Part shown: one piece after another, positions 1 to 17,927 of the stretch
Position numbering within the stretch: position 1 is the first letter of the stretch
Layout: each line of letters begins with the position of its first letter
DNA from: an uncultured Bacteroidota bacterium
Lineage (GTDB): Bacteria; Bacteroidota; Bacteroidia; Chitinophagales; Chitinophagaceae
Direction of reading: 5' to 3'
Length of the DNA stretch: 54,184 nucleotides
Assembly (NCBI GenBank): GCA_903903635.1
Contig: CAIUZK010000004.1
Location: 1 to 54,184, forward strand
Position numbers and translations under genes: made by a program
The notes under the pieces: generated by a model
Database searches by the model: none
Seen by the model: the letters and a program-made list of their open reading frames with translations, nothing else
What the model was told of the DNA's origin: nothing

Positions 1-166
1 CCGCCCTTTGCCGTTGAATAGAACATAAAATGAGGTAATTGGTAGAATTTGTACCTTATTTGTACCTCGAAACGCTGAAAGCCTTACCAGTATTGATAAG
101 TTACTTTTTGTATCGGGAAATAAGAATCCTAACAGAATAATAATTTATCTGTACGGTTAATTTCCG

Positions 167-174
167 TACATTTG
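167..174 (+). promoter_or_regulatory. -7 promoter element of the TacA/TacT operon
   Basis: TACATTTG matches the Bacteroidota -7 consensus TAnnTTTG exactly. Transcription would start about 7 nt downstream, near 180. That rules out the upstream in-frame TTG at 172 and favours the ATG at 190. Confidence 0.6.
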
Positions 175-189
175 TATCAATTATATGTT

Positions 190-477
190 ATGAGTTACGC
201 AAATCAACAACAAGCAAGGTTTGATACCAGACTAACAAAGAGTCAAAAAGAATTCTTTGAACTTGCTGCCCGGATTAGCGGTTTTAAATCCCTCTCCGAA
301 TTTGTTATACATTCTACCCAACAAGTAGCCAATAGTATTGTTGAGAAGCATAACGCCATACTTGCAACCGAAAAAGATCGAAAAGTATTTTTCGATTCGC
401 TGGTTAATTCTCCTAAGCCAAATAAATCATTGAAAGAAGCAGCGAAGCATTATCAAAAGCAAGTGTCTGCAAAATGA
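190..477 (+). CDS. DUF1778/TacA-type antitoxin
   Basis: A 95-residue protein with a ribbon-helix-helix-like N-terminus (ARFDTRLTKSQKEFFELAA) followed by a helical region rich in charged residues. This is the layout of DUF1778 antitoxins, which bind DNA through the N-terminus and wrap the partner acetyltransferase with the C-terminus. The frame is open from a TTG at 172, but a perfect -7 element overlaps that codon, so the ATG at 190 is preferred. Its stop overlaps the start of the GNAT gene by 4 bases (ATGA), the usual translational coupling of such pairs. By analogy with TacA it should repress its own promoter and neutralise the toxin. Family assignment is from sequence pattern; function is inferred. 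Confidence 0.85.
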   Translation: MSYANQQQARFDTRLTKSQKEFFELAARISGFKSLSEFVIHSTQQVANSIVEKHNAILATEKDRKVFFDSLVNSPKPNKSLKEAAKHYQKQVSAK

Positions 478-12299: not shown

Positions 12300-13316
12300 T
12301 TATTCAGAAACTGTGTAATTAGCCAGAGTCTTTTTCAACCTGGCGGTAATTTTGCCAATCAGCCGCCTGGGGCTAATGATGGTCATTTGTTCGCCGAAAC
12401 CAAGAATTTCGCGTTCCAGCTCAAAATTCCAAATCACGTTAATGGTAAAAACTGTGCCGTCACTTTCTTCTCTTATTATTCGCTGAGTAGGATGAACCGG
12501 CTTTGTAATGACATAAGGCACATGCTCCTTTACCATTTTAAACACGATCTGGAGGGGAGTTTGGTTGACTGATTTTGAAACTCCAATTACATCGCTGAAA
12601 TAATTGATCACATCAAATTCAGGCTTGAGGTATTTTTCATGCTCCAGTTCTGTAAAATGATCAATCCTGTCGAGCGCCAGTAATAATATTCCCTTTCCTA
12701 TTTTGGAGGCTCCAAGCAAGAACCAGCGGTTCCGGTATTCCTTTAGCAGGTAGGGATAAAATACTATATTTTGCGGCTTGATCGCCCTGAAAGACTGATA
12801 AGCCACTTCAATAGCTCGACTATTGATAATTGCCTTATGCAGCGGATCAATATGATTAAGGCCCTTGAGTAATTCATTCTTCTCAAAGTCTATGAATGAC
12901 CTGCCTTTATGTTGTTGTTTGAAAAGCTTATCCTCAAGCCGGGTCACCATACCATTCAATTCCTCGAAATATCCAAACCCTTTGAATTGCTTCAAAACTT
13001 CGAGCACTTCATTGAGGGTTCCAAGATCCTGGTTGGTAAGCGGTGAATTGGTAATGCTGAATTCTTTTTCCTCGTAGCTATAATACTTCTTATCAGTAAC
13101 AATAATGGGTGCGTTATAACCCAGCTTCTCGCTGCGCATGTTTTGAATGTCCAGTTGCACAGTTCGCTTGCTCACCCCCCTGGCGATACCCTCATATTCA
13201 AATATAGTCGTCGAGCAAGCAACAACAAGGTCTTCAAGTGTCCATTTACGCAGCCGGTTTTGGAGACAATTATCGATGGTTTTGTAGCGCACTAGGGCCA
13301 GTTTATTGATTGGCAT
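12300..13316 (-). CDS. WYL-domain transcriptional regulator of the Ro60/RtcB locus
   Basis: A 338-residue regulator. An N-terminal helix-turn-helix region (residues 1-80, with SKRTVQLDIQNMRS as a recognition-like helix) precedes a WYL domain around residues 165-235, whose core reads PYLLKEYRNRWFLLGA. A C-terminal WCX-like extension ends LKKTLANYTVSE. WYL domains are ligand sensors, thought to bind nucleic acids or nucleotides, and occur in regulators of stress and defence loci. Here the gene is divergent from ro60 with a 259-bp shared intergenic region carrying TGCGCAA repeats, so it most likely controls the RNA-repair operon in place of the RtcR activator used by Enterobacteria. Whether it activates or represses cannot be told. 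Confidence 0.88.
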   Translation of the reverse strand: MPINKLALVRYKTIDNCLQNRLRKWTLEDLVVACSTTIFEYEGIARGVSKRTVQLDIQNMRSEKLGYNAPIIVTDKKYYSYEEKEFSITNSPLTNQDLGTLNEVLEVLKQFKGFGYFEELNGMVTRLEDKLFKQQHKGRSFIDFEKNELLKGLNHIDPLHKAIINSRAIEVAYQSFRAIKPQNIVFYPYLLKEYRNRWFLLGASKIGKGILLLALDRIDHFTELEHEKYLKPEFDVINYFSDVIGVSKSVNQTPLQIVFKMVKEHVPYVITKPVHPTQRIIREESDGTVFTINVIWNFELEREILGFGEQMTIISPRRLIGKITARLKKTLANYTVSE

Positions 13317-13368
13317 GAGCTCATTTTTAGATTTAGCAACCAGCTAAAATGTGAATTTATAAAAAATC

Positions 13369-13387
13369 TGCGCAACCTATTTGCGCA
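13369..13387. promoter_or_regulatory. putative WYL-regulator operator, inverted site
   Basis: TGCGCAA-CCTAT-TTGCGCA is a perfect 7-bp inverted repeat with a 5-bp spacer, lying 53 bp upstream of the WYL gene start. The right half is itself the palindrome TTGCGCAA. The same heptamer recurs in the ro60 promoter. Confidence 0.5.
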
Positions 13388-13481
13388 ATGAAAAATAATT
13401 TCCATTCCCTGAAAATTTCTTTTAGTTGATAATCAGGCATTTGGAGCATTTTTCAAAAAATAGCTGAAAATATTTCACAAC

Positions 13482-13502
13482 TGCGCAATTACACTGCGTA
13501 AT
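13482..13502. promoter_or_regulatory. putative WYL-regulator operator, direct site
   Basis: TGCGCAAT and TGCGTAAT stand as a direct repeat with a 13-bp period, just upstream of the ro60 -7 element, around -41 to -21 relative to the expected start of transcription. That position would suit either promoter blocking or activation. Confidence 0.5.
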
Positions 13503-13509
13503 GCTGTTT

Positions 13510-13517
13510 CATCTTTG
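13510..13517 (+). promoter_or_regulatory. -7 promoter element of ro60
   Basis: CATCTTTG differs from TAnnTTTG at one base. It would start a leader of about 50 nt before the ATG at 13576. The imperfect match fits a regulated promoter. Confidence 0.45.
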
Positions 13518-13575
13518 CATCATCAAACAAAAACGATTGAAAAAAAAACAATAGCAACCATTAAAATGCAGCAAC

Positions 13576-15093
13576 ATGAAATTCAACATCTTCAAAAAAA
13601 AGGCAAATACAGTTAACAATTACGAAGGGGCTAAGGCATATGCGCTTACACCAGAAACGGAACTGTATGCAGCCGTAGTAACCGCAGGGCTGAGTGATAC
13701 CTTTTATGAAAAAGGTGAAACCAGACTTGAACGGATAAGGGAGTTGATGGCAAAAAACAATCCTGAGTACATAGCCCGGCTGGCAGTTTATGCCCGCAAT
13801 GAAATGTACCTGAGGAGCGTGCCACTGGTGCTTGCTGTAGAATTGGCTAAAACAAATTCGGGCAATGCCATTGTGGGAAAAGCAGTAACCGGCGTGGTAC
13901 AGAGAGCAGATGAGATAACTGAACTACTTGCCTATTATGAACTGGCCAATAACAGAACAGGTACTAAGAAACTGAATAAATTATCGAGGCAGATACAGAA
14001 GGGCCTTGCAGTATCGTTCAACAGATTTGATGAGTACCAGTTTGCCAAATACAACCGGGATGCTGCTATAAAACTGAGGGATGCCTTATTCATAGTTCAC
14101 CCTAAAGCAAAGGATGAAGGACAGCAGGCTGTGTTCAATAAAATAGCTACTAATGAGTTATCCACTCCCTATACCTGGGAGACTGAACTCTCTGCTCTGG
14201 GTCAGGTAAAGTATGCCGACGAAAAAGAAAAGGCAATTGCTTTCAAAAACAAATGGGAGGAACTGATAGATAGCAACAGAATGGGCTATATGGCAACGAT
14301 GCGCAACCTCAGGAATATACTTGAAGCAGAAGTTTCGGTGGCCCATATGATCAAGGTGTGCAACTATCTTAGCAATGAAAAAGCTGTTGCAGCATCCAGG
14401 CAGCTACCATACAGGTTCCTTGCGGCATACCGGGAGGTAAAGGGCCTAAGTTCGGATATGGTAAGTATGGTATTAAAAGCCCTTGAGACTGCAGTAGTTT
14501 TAAGTGTACAGCAACTAAGGGGATTTGATGAAAACACAAGCGTACTGATAGCCTGTGATGTTTCAGGATCTATGCAGCATTCTATTTCGCCAAGGAGCAA
14601 GGTACTGCACTTTGATATTGGATTGGTACTGGGAATGCTGATGCAATCGAAGTGTAAGCGGGTGGTAACAGGTATGTTCGGTGAAAAGTGGAAGGTGATC
14701 AATATGCCATCGGGTAATGTGCTGGCTAATGTGCAGGAGTACTATAGCCGGGAGGGAGAGGTAGGCTATGCAACCAATGGCCACCTGGTACTGGATGATC
14801 TAATCAATAGAAAAGTGGTCATGGATAAGATCATGATGTTCACCGACTGCCAGATGTGGAACAGCCGCAACGGAGGTGCATCGCTTAATAAGTCGTGGAC
14901 TAAATACAAGAAGATGGCACCCGATGCAAAGCTCTATCTCTTCAATCTTGCCGGATATGGCACCACACCTCTTGATGTTAAGAATGACGATGTATATTTA
15001 ATAGCCGGCTGGAGTGATAAAATATTCGATGTACTTCAGGCTATTGAAAACGGATCGGATGCAGTAGAAAAGATAAGACAGATAGTGTTATAA
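13576..15093 (+). CDS. Ro60 ortholog, TROVE and vWA domains
   Basis: A 505-residue protein with an N-terminal TROVE ring of HEAT-like helices (residues about 15-310, e.g. MAKNNPEYIARLAVYARNEM) and a C-terminal vWA domain with a complete metal-ion site: D328-x-S-G-S in ACDVSGSMQ, plus MMFTDCQMWN near the end. Ro60 (Rsr in bacteria) is a ring that holds misfolded or damaged RNA ends in its hole and a Y RNA on its outer rim; in Deinococcus the Y RNA tethers it to PNPase. Here it opens a locus holding four Y-like RNAs, rtcB, and a fifth RNA, with a divergent WYL regulator. A role in RNA surveillance and repair is inferred. Confidence 0.93.
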   Translation: MKFNIFKKKANTVNNYEGAKAYALTPETELYAAVVTAGLSDTFYEKGETRLERIRELMAKNNPEYIARLAVYARNEMYLRSVPLVLAVELAKTNSGNAIVGKAVTGVVQRADEITELLAYYELANNRTGTKKLNKLSRQIQKGLAVSFNRFDEYQFAKYNRDAAIKLRDALFIVHPKAKDEGQQAVFNKIATNELSTPYTWETELSALGQVKYADEKEKAIAFKNKWEELIDSNRMGYMATMRNLRNILEAEVSVAHMIKVCNYLSNEKAVAASRQLPYRFLAAYREVKGLSSDMVSMVLKALETAVVLSVQQLRGFDENTSVLIACDVSGSMQHSISPRSKVLHFDIGLVLGMLMQSKCKRVVTGMFGEKWKVINMPSGNVLANVQEYYSREGEVGYATNGHLVLDDLINRKVVMDKIMMFTDCQMWNSRNGGASLNKSWTKYKKMAPDAKLYLFNLAGYGTTPLDVKNDDVYLIAGWSDKIFDVLQAIENGSDAVEKIRQIVL

Positions 15094-15101
15094 TATCGCG
15101 G

Positions 15102-15127
15102 CCCCTCTGCCGGAAACGGCAGAGGGG
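15102..15127 (+). other. GAAA-capped RNA hairpin after ro60
   Basis: An 11-bp perfect stem, CCCCTCTGCCG and CGGCAGAGGGG, is closed by a GAAA tetraloop, 8 nt after the ro60 stop. There is no U-tract, so it is unlikely to be a simple terminator. It may protect the 3' end of the ro60 mRNA, set a processing point before the RNA array, or be a receptor for RNA-binding proteins of the locus. Confidence 0.6.
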
Positions 15128-15162
15128 ATAACGGGAAAAGTTCTTTAAAATATGGATGATAA

Positions 15163-15285
15163 TTCCGGAGTGCCGTAGTAATGGGTTACTTCGCCACCAT
15201 AAGGGGAAAGGGTCCGTGTGCAAATCCGGAAGAGGTGCAAATCCTCAGGCGCTCCCCTGGCTCGTTACAAATATTGCCTCCGGAA
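15163..15285 (+). ncRNA. Y RNA-like RNA, unit A
   Basis: A 123-nt folded unit. Outer helix: TTCCGGAG (15163-15170) with CTCCGGAA (15278-15285), 8 bp. Conserved 5' loop TGCCGTA (15171-15177) faces the 9-nt loop AAATATTGC. Inner helix: GTAATGGG (15178-15185) with CTCGTTAC (15261-15268), 8 bp with two wobbles. TTACTTCG follows. The head has an AGGGGA/TCCCCT helix and a T-arm-like hairpin, GAGG-TGCAAAT-CCTC, at 15232-15246, but no D arm. It is the least tRNA-like of the long copies. By analogy with bacterial Y RNAs, the paired loop region should bind Ro60 and the head should bind or mimic tRNA-handling partners. Confidence 0.8.
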
Positions 15286-15289
15286 CTCA

Positions 15290-15388
15290 TTGAAAGATGC
15301 CGTAGATCAGGGATACTTCATTGGCCGATGCAGGTTCGAATCCTGCCCCGGGAAACCGGGATGCCCTGGCAGCCTTTAGCTCTTTCAA
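15290..15388 (+). ncRNA. Y RNA-like RNA, unit B (short)
   Basis: A 99-nt unit beginning 4 nt after unit A. Outer helix TTGAAAGA with TCTTTCAA, 8 bp. Loop TGCCGTA (15298-15304) faces GCCTTTAGC (15372-15380). The inner helix GATCAGGG with CCCTGGCA pairs only over its inner 6 positions. ATACTTCA follows. The head is a perfect T arm, GCAGG-TTCGAAT-CCTGC (15330-15346), directly followed by CCCGG-GAAA-CCGGG, so it looks like the T-arm/acceptor minihelix of a tRNA capped by a tetraloop. No D arm is present. It may be a minimal module lacking the tRNA elbow contact. Confidence 0.8.
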
Positions 15389-15396
15389 AAAAACAA

Positions 15397-15525
15397 TTTA
15401 ACAGTGCCGTAAGCAAGTGATACTTCGTATATAATTATGTGTCGCCAGTTCGAATCCGGCTTCTATGAAAATGGAATAGCTCAGTTGGTAGAGCAATAAA
15501 CGCTTGCTGCTTTTTGCCTGTTAGA
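15397..15525 (+). ncRNA. Y RNA-like RNA with permuted tRNA head, unit C
   Basis: A 129-nt unit and the clearest tRNA mimic. Outer helix TTTAACAG with CTGTTAGA. Loop TGCCGTA (15405-15411) faces GCTTTTTGC (15509-15517). Inner helix AGCAAGTG with CGCTTGCT, 8 bp with one wobble. Then ATACTTCG. The head reads T arm GCCAG-TTCGAAT-CCGGC (15444-15460), acceptor 3' strand TTCTAT, tetraloop GAAA, acceptor 5' strand ATGGAA, and the D arm TAGCTCAGTTGGTAGAGCA (15477-15495) with GG at the G18-G19 place. It is thus a circularly permuted tRNA whose acceptor ends are sealed and whose anticodon arm is replaced by the Ro60-type stem. No anticodon or CCA exists, so it is not a translating tRNA. Confidence 0.88.
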
Positions 15526-15531
15526 ATTTTA

Positions 15532-15660
15532 AGAATGGTGTCGTAGAGCGGGGTTACTTCGTTTGGGACCAGGAGGTCGCAGGTTCAAATCCTGCCTGTT
15601 AATAACAGTAGCTCAGATGGCCAGAGCACCTGTGCGCCCCGCTTGCCTTTTACCCATTCT
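15532..15660 (+). ncRNA. Y RNA-like RNA with permuted tRNA head, unit D
   Basis: A 129-nt unit starting 6 nt after unit C. Outer helix AGAATGG with CCATTCT, 7 bp. Loop TGTCGTA (15539-15545) faces GCCTTTTAC (15645-15653). Inner helix GAGCGGGG with CCCCGCTT, 8 bp. Then TTACTTCG. A small hairpin GACC-AGGA-GGTC stands in the variable-arm place. The head is T arm GCAGG-TTCAAAT-CCTGC (15579-15595), CTGTT-AAT-AACAG as the sealed acceptor stem, TA, and D arm GCTC-AGATGGCCA-GAGC (15611-15627). ATTTTTATT follows the outer helix, so its 3' strand may double as a terminator for the array. Confidence 0.88.
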
Positions 15661-15671
15661 ATTTTTATTCC

Positions 15672-15694
15672 GGTACTACGGTACCATATATTTG
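15672..15694 (+). promoter_or_regulatory. rtcB promoter with palindrome
   Basis: TATATTTG at 15687-15694 is an exact TAnnTTTG -7 element. The inverted repeat GGTAC-TACG-GTACC (15672-15685) abuts it and could be an operator. The expected transcription start near 15701 supports the rtcB start at 15729 over the in-frame ATG at 15708, and means rtcB can be made independently of ro60 and the RNA array. Confidence 0.6.
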
Positions 15695-15728
15695 CAACAT
15701 ACCAGAAATGGTAATAAATTTATTAAAC

Positions 15729-17156
15729 ATGAACAAGCATAAAATAACAGGAGAAGACCTTATTACCGCCGGTTTTACCGAAGGGAAAGCAATAGGAAGT
15801 GCGTTGAAGGTTTTGGAACAAAACTACCAGGAACTGAGACGAAAAGATGTGCTGGCACTGTTCAGAAAACTGGTTCGCTATCCGGAGAATTTCCTCGATG
15901 ATGAACTGCTGGCAGAAGTGGCTCAGGATCTGATTGAAAAGCAGAAAGAAGCAGATAATGCAGCCATTCAGCTCAAAGTAAAAGCAGACACCTATGCTGT
16001 ATTTGGCAAGGAGCATATTGAACAAGGAGCTATTGACCAGATGGAGGTAGCCATGAGATTGCCGGTGACTGTCGCAGGCGCCCTGATGCCGGATGCACAC
16101 CAGGGTTATGGATTGCCAATTGGTGGTGTACTGGCAGCGAATAATACCATTATACCATATGCAGTAGGTGTAGATATAGGTTGTCGTATGGCCCTGTCAG
16201 TGTATGATATTCCTGAATCTCACTTCCTGGAAAATGAATCGAAATACAAAAAGGAACTGTTAGCCTGGACGAAATTCGGAGCAGGTGCCGGATGGCAGGG
16301 AAAGTTCAGGGCTGACCATGCCATACTGGATAGACAAGAATTTAACGCTACACCTTTTATCAAAGAACTTCATGATAAAGCGGTTGCTCAATTAGGGACT
16401 TCAGGTGGTGGTAATCATTTTACGGAATGGGGTATTATCGAGTTTATTAAAGCTGATGAACAGCTTAACATAAAAGCAGGAAGGTATCTTGCGCTGCTTA
16501 CCCATTCCGGATCGCGTGGATTTGGTGCAACCATAGCCGGGCATTACACCAAGCTGGCCAAGCAAGTGTGCAAGCTACCAAAGGAAGCTGCCAACCTTGC
16601 CTACTTTGATATGAACAGTGCGGGGGGTATGGAATACTGGTTAGCGATGAATCTTGCAGGTGATTATGCATCGGCATGCCATGAAGTGATACATGAGCGA
16701 CTGACTAAGGCAATAGGCGGACAAGTGCTGGCAAAGGTCGAAAACCACCACAACTTTGCATGGAAAGAGATGTGGAACGGACAGGAGGTAATTGTTCACA
16801 GGAAAGGGGCTACCCCGGCAGGAAAAGATGTAATGGGTATTATACCTGGATCAATGACCGCACCGGGATTTCTGGTAAGGGGTAAGGGCGAGATAAGTGC
16901 CATCAACAGCGCATCTCATGGCGCAGGCCGACAGATGAGCAGGACTCAGGCGATTAAAAATATAACGAAGGCAGAGATGCAACAGGTATTGAAAGATCAT
17001 GGTGTAACACTAATTGGGGCAGGCCTTGATGAAGCGCCTATGGCTTATAAAAATATTGAAACGGTTATGGCGGCTCAACAGGAACTAGTAGATATCGTTG
17101 CTCAGTTCACACCAAAAATGGTGCGAATGGCCGATGATGGGAGCAGGGAAGATTAG
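15729..17156 (+). CDS. rtcB: RNA-splicing ligase RtcB
   Basis: Joins 2',3'-cyclic phosphate (or 3'-phosphate) RNA ends to 5'-OH ends using GTP and Mn2+. All key motifs are present: GVDIGCRM with the metal cysteine, GTSGGGNHFTEW, LTHSGSRGFG, KVENHHNFAW, VHRKGATPAGKD with the histidine that takes up GMP (residue 357 from this start), SASHGAGRQMSR and AGLDEAPMAYK. The protein has 475 residues. The frame extends 7 codons upstream to 15708, but the promoter favours 15729. It lies between Y-like RNAs D and E, after ro60. No rtcA, archease or prfH gene is seen. It should repair tRNA or rRNA cut by ribotoxins, and possibly act on the neighbouring RNAs. Confidence 0.95.
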   Translation: MNKHKITGEDLITAGFTEGKAIGSALKVLEQNYQELRRKDVLALFRKLVRYPENFLDDELLAEVAQDLIEKQKEADNAAIQLKVKADTYAVFGKEHIEQGAIDQMEVAMRLPVTVAGALMPDAHQGYGLPIGGVLAANNTIIPYAVGVDIGCRMALSVYDIPESHFLENESKYKKELLAWTKFGAGAGWQGKFRADHAILDRQEFNATPFIKELHDKAVAQLGTSGGGNHFTEWGIIEFIKADEQLNIKAGRYLALLTHSGSRGFGATIAGHYTKLAKQVCKLPKEAANLAYFDMNSAGGMEYWLAMNLAGDYASACHEVIHERLTKAIGGQVLAKVENHHNFAWKEMWNGQEVIVHRKGATPAGKDVMGIIPGSMTAPGFLVRGKGEISAINSASHGAGRQMSRTQAIKNITKAEMQQVLKDHGVTLIGAGLDEAPMAYKNIETVMAAQQELVDIVAQFTPKMVRMADDGSRED

Positions 17157-17168
17157 ACATTTTGAAAT

Positions 17169-17300
17169 TCAAAGGTGCCGTAAAACAGGGATACTTCGGC
17201 CAGAGCAACGGGCAATGCCCGGAAGTCGCAGGTTCAACTCCTGCTCAGCCCAAAGCTGATAGCTCAGTTTTCATGCCTTGTTTGTTTTTTTGCCCTTTGG
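17169..17300 (+). ncRNA. Y RNA-like RNA, unit E, downstream of rtcB
   Basis: A 132-nt unit beginning 13 nt after the rtcB stop. Outer helix CAAAGG with CCTTTG plus one flanking wobble. Loop TGCCGTA (17176-17182) faces GTTTTTTTGC (10 nt). Inner helix AAACAGGG with CCTTGTTT, 8 bp with one wobble. Then ATACTTCG. A hairpin CGGGC-AAT-GCCCG fills the variable-arm place. The head has T arm GCAGG-TTCAACT-CCTGC (17228-17244) and TCAGC-CCAAA-GCTGA as the sealed acceptor stem. TAGCTCAGT then begins a D arm that does not close (no GAGC, no GG). Probably co-transcribed with rtcB. Confidence 0.85.
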
Positions 17301-17398: not shown

Positions 17399-17686
17399 AT
17401 GTCAGTAGAAAACGCAAAGATCAAAGTGCGTAACCGAATGGTTGAAATTAAATGGGTTTCTGAATTTTGCGACCATATCCTTGAAAACTATGTCAACAAA
17501 AGCAAAGACCATGATTTGAAATTTCTTCAAATTTCCAGGTTGTTGAAGACTTGTAGTGTGTTTGTGCATCATGATGGAAGGACATGGTATGGTCATAGTT
17601 CATTAAATGGCATAAAATATAGAGTTGTATTCATTTTAACGCCTAAATTTGCAGTAGTAAAAACTTGTTATCGTTATGGTTACTAA
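17399..17686 (+). CDS. small protein of toxin-like character
   Basis: A 95-residue protein I cannot assign to a named family. The C-terminal half, RTWYGHSSLNGIKYRVVFIL then FAVVKTCYRYGY, has the strand pattern and closing T-x-Y-R motif common in small BECR-fold (RelE/barnase-like) RNases. The N-terminal half is helical. It overlaps the next gene by 11 bases, in the manner of a toxin-antitoxin pair. It lies 99 bp after RNA unit E, in the same direction as rtcB. If it is an RNase, it would put an RNA-breaking and an RNA-mending activity side by side; that is inference only. Confidence 0.6.
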   Translation: MSVENAKIKVRNRMVEIKWVSEFCDHILENYVNKSKDHDLKFLQISRLLKTCSVFVHHDGRTWYGHSSLNGIKYRVVFILTPKFAVVKTCYRYGY

Positions 17687-17927
17687 GAAAATTGAAAAAT
17701 CAGATAAATACGCTGATTACCGTTACGAAATCGTCACTCCTGAAGAGTTGAGGGAAGCCAATTGGATGATTGAAAGGGGTGACTATAAGGATATAGACGA
17801 TTATATCGAACGCTTCACACAATCTGAAATCAGGCGCATGAAGAGCGAGTACGCAGCTAAGAAAAAGCGTGCTGACGAGAAAAAAAAGAGGAATTTGAAT
17901 TCAGTAAAGAAAAATAAAGCCGCGTAA
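17676..17927 (+). CDS. small charged protein, possible antitoxin partner
   Basis: An 83-residue, highly charged protein. The middle segment EELREANWMIERGDYKDIDD is predicted helical, and the tail from residue 60 is almost all lysine, arginine and alanine, suggesting nucleic-acid binding or an unfolded tail. It starts inside the preceding gene (11-base overlap, other frame), so the two are translationally coupled. The order toxin then antitoxin is the HigBA-like order, but no helix-turn-helix was recognised. Function unproven. Confidence 0.6.
   Translation: MVTKKIEKSDKYADYRYEIVTPEELREANWMIERGDYKDIDDYIERFTQSEIRRMKSEYAAKKKRADEKKKRNLNSVKKNKAA

Follow-up and report, generated by a model that had tools for sequence, protein, structure and literature searches.

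The 54,184-nt window analyzed here (the whole stretch of DNA from an uncultured Bacteroidota bacterium; G000:C4:1-54184) contains a locus that consists of, in order, a gene for a WYL-WCX transcription regulator, a divergent ro60 gene, four RNA units, rtcB, and one more RNA unit. The five units share a single two-helix handle and carry different, mostly tRNA-like heads. Ro60 rings bind Y RNAs, and we see about an even chance that this is a WYL-controlled RNA-repair locus, in which Ro60 particles would present parts of the translation RNAs as RNase baits or sensors and RtcB would reseal them.

The first-pass annotation, made from the sequence alone, had read a WYL regulator, ro60, four Y-like RNAs, rtcB, and a fifth Y-like RNA in this stretch, and Pfam searches and a covariance model (R1, described below) placed each of them where it had been read. 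The regulator gene (12300–13316, minus strand, divergent from ro60) exceeded the Pfam cut-offs for the WYL domain (E = 1.2e-10; 41.7 bits versus a cut-off of 21.8) and the WCX domain (E = 1.2e-9). The ro60 product (13576–15093, plus strand) is composed of a TROVE ring and a vWA domain with the motif DVSGSM. Both domains expected of a bacterial Ro60 (Rsr) were found above their Pfam cut-offs (TROVE, E = 2.9e-30, 106.2 bits versus 23; vWA_Ro60, E = 3e-7, 30.9 bits versus 27.7), and the protein matched the solved TROVE protein 9l5y with an E-value of 1.7e-26. Against the NCBIfam equivalog Rsr (NF041674), it scored 33.8 bits, and the curated cut-off is 900; therefore, the protein is a Ro60 relative outside the Rsr equivalog. 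RtcB RNA ligase (15708–17156, plus strand) was identified with a Pfam E-value of 1.1e-78, and the histidine of its SHGAGR motif, which we take to be the guanylylated residue, is conserved in the alignment to the solved RtcB 1uc2. A search for RtcA gave 0 matches in the whole genome of the organism (98.6% complete), and the same search was positive in 5 of 14 control genomes, including Escherichia coli.

The common handle and its covariation

With unit ends set by the outer helices, the five RNA units (all on the plus strand) lie at 15163–15285 (unit 1), 15290–15388 (unit 2), 15397–15525 (unit 3), 15532–15660 (unit 4), and 17169–17300 (unit 5), and the gaps of 4, 8, and 6 nt that had been noted between the first four are correct. 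All five have a handle composed of an outer helix, an internal loop with GYCGTA, an inner helix, and the sequence TACTTCG, and their common 5′ motif recurs five times in the window. Two features that define Y RNAs were found: a two-helix stem of the Ro60-binding type with a conserved internal loop, encoded beside ro60, and, in at least one member (units 3 and 4), a T arm, a closed acceptor, and a D arm. Judged from its sequence, the handle should dock on the Ro60 ring.

No Rfam family matched the window at its gathering score. At a relaxed threshold and over the full model length, the YrlA family (RF02553) matched unit 4 (E = 2.7e-7, 41.8 bits), unit 3 (E = 1.3e-6, 39.5 bits), and unit 5 (E = 8.2e-4, 29.8 bits); the search with known models that the first-pass annotation had proposed therefore reaches three units, all below the gathering score of 69 bits, and these are not filed as RF02553. 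The fold energies of single units are modestly lower than those of shuffled sequences (z from −1.2 to −3.0), and because the difference is of this size only, energy alone is no proof of structure. The possibility that the units are chance hairpins was ruled out not by fold energy but by covariation in alignment A4, which is made up of 20 units that were picked by hand and have a tRNA-like head, including window units 3 and 4. In A4, 97.0% of the cells are paired, double changes occur in 28 of the 33 pairs, compensatory changes are present in all five helices, and the covariation score is 0.712, compared with 0.100–0.145 for slid structures. The conserved fold in homologous loci on which the identification of Y-like RNAs had been staked is thus present.

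The covariance model R1, built from A4 with units 1, 2, and 5 untrained, recovered all five window units, the untrained ones with E-values of 9.9e-13 (unit 5), 1.8e-12 (unit 2), and 7.1e-9 (unit 1); the next match in the 54 kb has an E-value of 0.16. The full-length matches of R1 separated genomes by their ro60. In a panel of 60 genomes (the organism's own and 59 relatives, with up to 55 candidates scored per genome), ro60 is present in six, and full-length matches were restricted to these six (22 matches, four of them training members). Partial matches only were found in 17 of the 54 genomes without ro60. Seven regions with partial matches were fetched from such genomes; in four of them, all seven matches span junctions of neighboring tRNA genes, and the remaining three are not on tRNA gene junctions. 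The bare 5′ motif was rejected as a marker since it is too loose, with matches in 51 of the 60 genomes; clusters of at least two motif matches within 2 kb, counted by hand, occur in five of the six genomes with ro60 versus none of the 54 others. In two ro60-free loci, L185 (about 150–380, minus strand) and L186 (1150–1330), we observed stretches of tRNA arrays with the order T arm, complementary acceptor strands, D arm. These stretches resemble permuted tRNA pieces without the Ro60 handle and are a possible source of heads.

Between the ro60 stop codon and the first Y RNA lies a strong 11-bp hairpin capped by GAAA (15102–15127, plus strand), read by eye and with no T-run after it, which is a possible processing or stabilizing element. 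A hairpin in the equivalent position was read from the sequence of locus L048.

Heads in the window and in related loci

The heads of the five window units differ: (i) unit 1 has a T-loop-like head; (ii) unit 2 has a T-arm minihelix; (iii) units 3 and 4 are tRNAs opened at the anticodon loop; and (iv) unit 5 is a tRNA opened at the D loop. The earlier description of one RNA family accordingly holds for the Ro60 handle and fails for the head architectures, and that of tRNA mimicry holds for units 3, 4, and 5, with unit 2 contributing arms only and unit 1 a T-loop-like arm only. The head of unit 1 is a hairpin plus a T-loop-like arm (15232–15246; class 1), and an alignment of 13 units of this kind has double changes in 19 of 25 pairs. 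A GGGG/CCCC closure of this head was seen by eye only and is absent from the minimum free energy (MFE) fold and the consensus fold; an acceptor-closed tRNA is our guess for unit 1, with the handle perhaps at the acceptor end. Unit 2 has a T arm (15330–15346) and an acceptor-like hairpin, both present in its MFE fold, and no D arm. Sequence kinship of units 1 and 2 with the organism's own tRNAs was considered and dropped, as the scores are not above those of shuffled sequences; therefore, the tRNA-likeness of these two units rests on their arms only.

Units 3 and 4 are of the YrlA type, with the acceptor closed. In unit 3, the T, acceptor, and D arms are all present in the MFE fold, and the nearest own tRNA is Lys(UUU), with a score of 45 versus a maximum of 23 in 20 shuffles. 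Unit 4 has a T arm (15579–15595) and a D stem (15611–15614/15624–15627), its MFE fold shows the T arm and the acceptor with the D arm paired otherwise, and the exact anticodon loop of tRNA-Pro(UGG), TTTGGGA, adjoins the handle at 15562–15568. Unit 5 folds as a cloverleaf in both MFE and centroid structures, with an anticodon stem (17209–17221), a T arm (17228–17244), an acceptor hairpin (17245–17259), and a D stem (17203–17206/17262–17265), and its best own-tRNA score is 39 versus a maximum of 25 in 20 shuffles. In the D-loop-opened class (unit 5 and six others), which was selected by a pattern demanding both D strands, the D stem, anticodon stem, T arm, and acceptor hairpin are present in the MFE folds of 7/7 units; the D stem is missing from 3/7 centroids (L045 8095, L037, and L040), and RNAalifold on five units of the class did not recover it.

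Of 438 ro60 places confirmed by tblastn, the best 80 were taken, and five relatives of the organism's own genome bring the related loci to 85, or 86 with the window; at least three locus pairs (L002/L054, L003/L052, and L004/L053) each appear to be one genome sampled twice. A script that required the 5′ motif, the outer helix, and the inner helix found 404 Y units, a few of them probably spurious, for example two that precede ro60 in L095 and L114; 24 more motifs failed to fold. Units occur in 85 of the 86 loci, the one exception being L082, the contig of which stops 201 nt after ro60. The median is five per locus and the maximum is nine, and the five members that the first-pass annotation had thought unusual are the norm among the Bacteroidota Ro60 loci examined. 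Sorting by rules (regular expressions and pairing rules, uncurated) assigned 117 of the 404 units to tRNAs opened at the anticodon loop (window units 3 and 4), 85 to T-arm minihelices (window unit 2), 65 to class 1 heads with a far T arm or T-loop-like arm and no D arm (window unit 1), 47 to anticodon-arm minis, 46 to other minis, seven to tRNAs opened at the D loop (window unit 5), and seven to helix-69 heads, with 30 unclassified.

The short units (insert of at most 34 nt), which at first sight are plain hairpins, can be read as anticodon arms. For example, TTCGA-CTTCCAA-TTGAA is a Gly UCC arm, TTCGA-CTTAGAA-TTGAA a Leu UAG arm, TTCAA-CTTTTAA-TTGAA a Lys UUU arm, and CAAA-CTTTCAC-TTTG a Glu UUC arm. 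A 7-nt loop with U33 and purine 37 on a stem with at least four of five pairs is present in 46 of 91 short units (shuffled mean 3.4, maximum 9, 300 shuffles). Comparison with 78 distinct anticodon loops, taken from 337 tRNA predictions (30 fetched loci each of the organism's own, L090, and L037 genomes, and eight array loci), revealed an exact real loop on a stem with at least three of five pairs in 27 of 77 distinct short units (shuffled mean 1.28, maximum 5, 500 shuffles). When geometry was demanded first (at least four of five pairs), 26 of 53 7-nt loops were exact, compared with a mean of 0.52 and a maximum of 4 in 2000 shuffles of the loop letters. The 27 exact-loop units cover twelve anticodons and ten amino acids, the Trp one on a stem with three of five pairs. 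Single linkage at >70% whole-unit identity grouped 26 exact-loop units into nine clusters, one of which holds Leu(CAA), Leu(UAG), Lys, Phe, Asp, and Tyr loops, that is to say, the loop identity switches while the rest of the unit is constant. Of six short units that were folded, five have an MFE structure with a 4- or 5-pair stem and a 7-nt loop, and the sixth (L081) has three pairs. The 262 distinct T-arm units include 29 with an exact real anticodon loop in the tRNA register, with variable-loop lengths of 3–6 allowed; register shifts of −1, 1, and 2 give 26–31 because four variable-loop lengths are tolerated, and the other shifts up to 9 give 0–10. Mimicry of the 16S decoding site by CCTGTCACGC loops was rejected, as these loops are tRNA-Asp anticodon loops. 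A further conserved class of Y units was observed in Chryseobacterium, with a hairpin TTAGA..TCTAA and the text CTGAATAACAGTAAGG or near it (L079 10309, L083 10339, L084 9597, L085 7955, L097 10576, L100 10032, L104 9001, L106 9193, L110 9643, and L112 9210).

Seven units have an insert of 164–172 nt that opens with 23S rRNA text corresponding to about E. coli positions 1910–1941, which we take to be helix 69 and the strand after it. Six are from Chryseobacterium-labeled records (L078 4915–5139, L079 10450–10674, L085 8351–8576, L103 9295–9520, L104 9415–9636, and L106 9603–9834), and the seventh is from a Limnohabitans-labeled record with a ro60 of this group (L048 9004–9232). The 275 contigs of the organism's own genome yielded neither a 16S nor a 23S rRNA gene, probably owing to an assembly gap, and E. 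coli and Chryseobacterium rRNAs were therefore used as reference. The L106 insert is identical to the 23S helix-69 text at 32/32 positions, and five of the seven units keep the 19-nt core TAACGGTCCTAAGGTAGCG unaltered, L103 and L104 having one change each. The seven units fold jointly, with 11 of 64 pairs doubly changed, and the insert beyond the helix-69 text is a conserved, covarying structure. In Rfam, the L106 unit matched the large-subunit model weakly (7.7 bits, E = 2.6, ranked under two unrelated chance families) because the rest of the insert is not rRNA-like. The 20-nt rRNA matches at L117 1124–1143 (and 1281–1299) are not mimicry, as they lie inside tRNA genes beside a 23S gene, and other rRNA matches of 11–13 nt in the units were dropped as near chance.

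Predicted intact tRNA genes stand near or within Y arrays of some relatives, as though spare tRNAs belonged to the system. At least seven were predicted beside the Ro60 locus in L037, L039, L040, L070, L085, L098, and L101, and a tRNA-Lys(UUU) gene lies within the Y array, 1–9 nt from a unit, in L037, L038, L043, and L070. The L037 genome has 51 tRNA matches, 18 of them around the locus (C1:288007–294943), and genes for Thg1 and an RNA ligase are found upstream of its tRNA array (L037 1409–3363); the L090 genome has fifteen tRNA genes at 737169–739664, about 13 kb upstream of its ro60. No tRNA gene was predicted in the window. Housekeeping genes flank the window locus, namely those for pyruvate kinase and a class V aminotransferase at one end and dnaB together with the gene for PheRS beta at the other end. 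Two short reading frames that overlap (17399–17686 and 17676–17927, plus strand) are located 3′ of the fifth Y RNA in an arrangement like that of a toxin–antitoxin pair; the first belongs to a conserved family of 50 proteins including itself, none with a Pfam domain.

A palindromic operator before ro60 and some repair genes

The intergenic region between the WYL gene and ro60 in the window contains two copies of the palindrome TRCGCAA-N5-TTGCGYA: an exact copy (13369–13387), which is the sole exact match in the organism's genome, and a copy with one mismatch (13482–13500), 113 nt from the first. Genome-wide, there are one exact and four one-mismatch sites, three of the latter elsewhere in the genome, which is close to what the reversed control gives (two). 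Across 31 WYL–ro60 intergenic regions, we counted 111 half sites, compared with a shuffled mean of 2.7 and a maximum of 9 (200 shuffles), and two pairs of half sites are present in 22 of the 31 (hand count). In the 85 loci besides the window, 160 operators with at most one mismatch were found in 1.03 Mb, and one shuffle per locus gave one. Of these, 104 stand no more than 350 nt before ro60 and cover 82 of the 85 loci (all but L057, L098, and L102); others lie just before Y units (15), before rtcB (11), before other frames (16), or before nothing recognized (14). Ten of the 16 other frames were scanned and encode Hen1 (two), RlaP (two), a T4-type RNA ligase (one), a further RtcB (one), a SUKH-type immunity protein (one), and proteins with no assignment (three); an eleventh frame (L076) has only a sub-threshold CdiI_N match.

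A divergent WYL gene was found within 2 kb of ro60 in 47 of the 86 loci and, by tblastn with the window WYL as query, in none of the other 39, some of which are incomplete upstream. The position of the operator and its co-occurrence with the WYL gene suggest that the WYL protein binds it. Sigma-70 promoters and intrinsic terminators showed no excess over shuffles, and a TA..TTTG promoter element at a fixed distance past the operator was rejected as weak. SUKH immunity-like genes stand after the operator beside the Y array in L056 (7610–8140, above the Pfam cut-off) and at the Y array in L106 (9869–10708, below the cut-off), and would fit a toxin setting.

Interpretation, rival explanations, and known systems

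We infer that the units are transcribed and that the WYL regulator binds the two palindromic operators between its own gene and ro60, controlling, with whichever sign, ro60, the Y RNA array, and rtcB. The handle is grafted on the anticodon loop in units 3 and 4, on the D loop in unit 5, on the T-acceptor side in unit 2, and perhaps, with uncertainty, on the acceptor end in unit 1; in relatives, it bears single anticodon arms or 23S helix-69 sequence. The heads would display the parts of translation RNAs targeted by RNase toxins, with the Ro60 particles acting as baits or sensors, and a cut loop would be kept in place by the handle. RtcB joins ends with a 2′,3′-cyclic or 3′ phosphate (PMC7824862) and, given 2′,3′-cyclic-phosphate and 5′-OH ends, could reseal the cut Y RNA and real tRNAs alike. 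A broader proposal, which we hold with somewhat less than even confidence, is a modular display library: one Ro60 handle with interchangeable tRNA parts, swapping arms of twelve anticodons, and helix 69, placed in one WYL regulon with RtcB, Hen1, RlaP, and RNA ligases as an inducible bait-and-repair defense against RNase toxins and anticodon nucleases.

Several observations weigh against the bait-and-repair reading. A co-oriented rtcB was found downstream in 32 of the 86 loci, some of which are incomplete, and an operator precedes it in only 11 of these 32. Of 93 short units, 46 fit no class, as do 30 units besides, and in unit 5 the anticodon stem is short and its loop has only 3 nt. The anticodon-loop shuffles take no account of relatedness among the units, and the loop swaps within clusters are therefore the better argument. 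The window array has neither a short anticodon-arm unit nor a helix-69 unit, so that the strongest evidence for baiting comes from relatives. Finally, Salmonella YrlA itself is uncut by the RecA-dependent tRNase (PMC7790460).

The suggestion that the units are debris, namely broken or permuted tRNA genes without function, draws on the partial R1 matches that lie on tRNA gene junctions in four of the seven regions fetched from ro60-free genomes; it is scarcely credible given that full-length, handle-bearing matches occur only in genomes with ro60 and that all five A4 helices carry compensatory changes. Helix 69 and anticodon loops are sites of modification, and the heads could accordingly recruit or titrate tRNA and rRNA modification enzymes, as the use of YrlA as a substrate by DusA and TruB would suggest (PMC8394870). 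Such modification hubs would leave the link of RtcB, Hen1, RlaP, and RNA ligase under one operator unexplained, and we regard them as very unlikely. Degradation of the RYPER kind, in which Y RNAs gate Ro60 and tether PNPase or another nuclease and the heads are docking modules fitted to the partners, is a role studied in Deinococcus (PMC7790460 and PMC8394870), and RNase_T exonuclease genes are found near loci L106 and L037. This explanation is unlikely, if still worth weighing, as docking of PNPase has no obvious need for exact anticodon loops that switch identity on a constant stem, nor for helix-69 text. The Y RNAs could instead be damage sensors, the displayed loops being cut first and the cut Y RNA, with its 2′,3′-cyclic phosphate end, serving as a signal for the WYL regulator and not as a decoy. 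The close linkage of operator and ro60 (82/85 loci) and the sensing by Salmonella RtcR of tRNA fragments with a 2′,3′-cyclic phosphate end (PMC7790460) are in line with this; however, 39 of the 86 loci are without a detected divergent WYL gene in spite of the widespread operator, and we judge it quite unlikely.

The locus is close in composition to Salmonella rsr-yrlBA-rtcBA, which also has a Ro60 orthologue, tRNA-like Y RNAs, RtcB, and a divergent regulator, is induced by tRNA fragments, and includes a YrlA for which a role as competitive inhibitor has been raised (PMC7790460). It differs in that (i) a WYL protein and a palindromic operator take the place of RtcR, a sigma-54 activator with a CARF domain; (ii) no RtcA was found; (iii) there are five Y RNAs of several head types; and (iv) one Y RNA lies after rtcB. 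Because RtcA was not found and the regulator is not RtcR, the locus is not a member of the RtcR-rtcBA operons, although it may work alike. The earlier idea of the Salmonella arrangement with WYL in place of RtcR thus survives in the RNA-repair genes and in a local WYL regulator with a conserved operator; a simple equivalence does not, as the search of the genome gave no RtcA and the operator in relatives precedes hen1, RNA ligase, and rlaP. Units 3 and 4 resemble the YrlA type (RF02553, PDB 6CU1) in their two-helix handle, T arm, closed acceptor, and D arm, and the circular permutation of the YrlA head was described previously (PMC11472068). By contrast, the window units have another handle consensus and score below the gathering score, the heads of units 1, 2, and 5 are of other kinds, and the opening in unit 5 is at the D loop.

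Burroughs and Aravind reportedly described RNA-repair systems with Hen1, RlaP, RtcB, RNA ligases, and TROVE in 2016, and the same protein families stand behind the operator in relatives of the window; here, one operator ties them to Y RNA arrays, and the array heads themselves differ. Jumbo phages with tRNA arrays, RtcB, and TROVE (PMC7824862) are similar to those relatives that combine tRNA arrays, TROVE, and repair enzymes. In the relatives, Y units are interleaved with tRNA genes, and the records are labeled as bacterial genomes or bins. Chen in 2014 is said to have found Y RNAs near Ro60 in more than 250 species, each with at least one tRNA-like member; multi-member loci may therefore be partly known. 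Ro60–RtcB loci, tRNA mimicry, and the circular permutation of YrlA are known. In the titles and abstract openings listed by a literature search, which did not extend to the main Y RNA papers, we saw neither Y RNAs of the anticodon-arm, helix-69, or D-loop-opened kinds nor the operator described, and part of the array diversity may already be in print.

So far, bacterial Y RNAs have been described as gates, as tethers, and as mimics of tRNA, with no clear reason for the mimicry. A constant handle with varied heads makes that reason testable, as each head predicts an RNA and hence a nuclease or enzyme. If the bait-and-repair reading is true, the WYL regulator would gain a defined operator and regulon, the units would be natural RNA scaffolds that present an anticodon loop, and Ro60 would be tied to defense against RNA damage across a large phylum.

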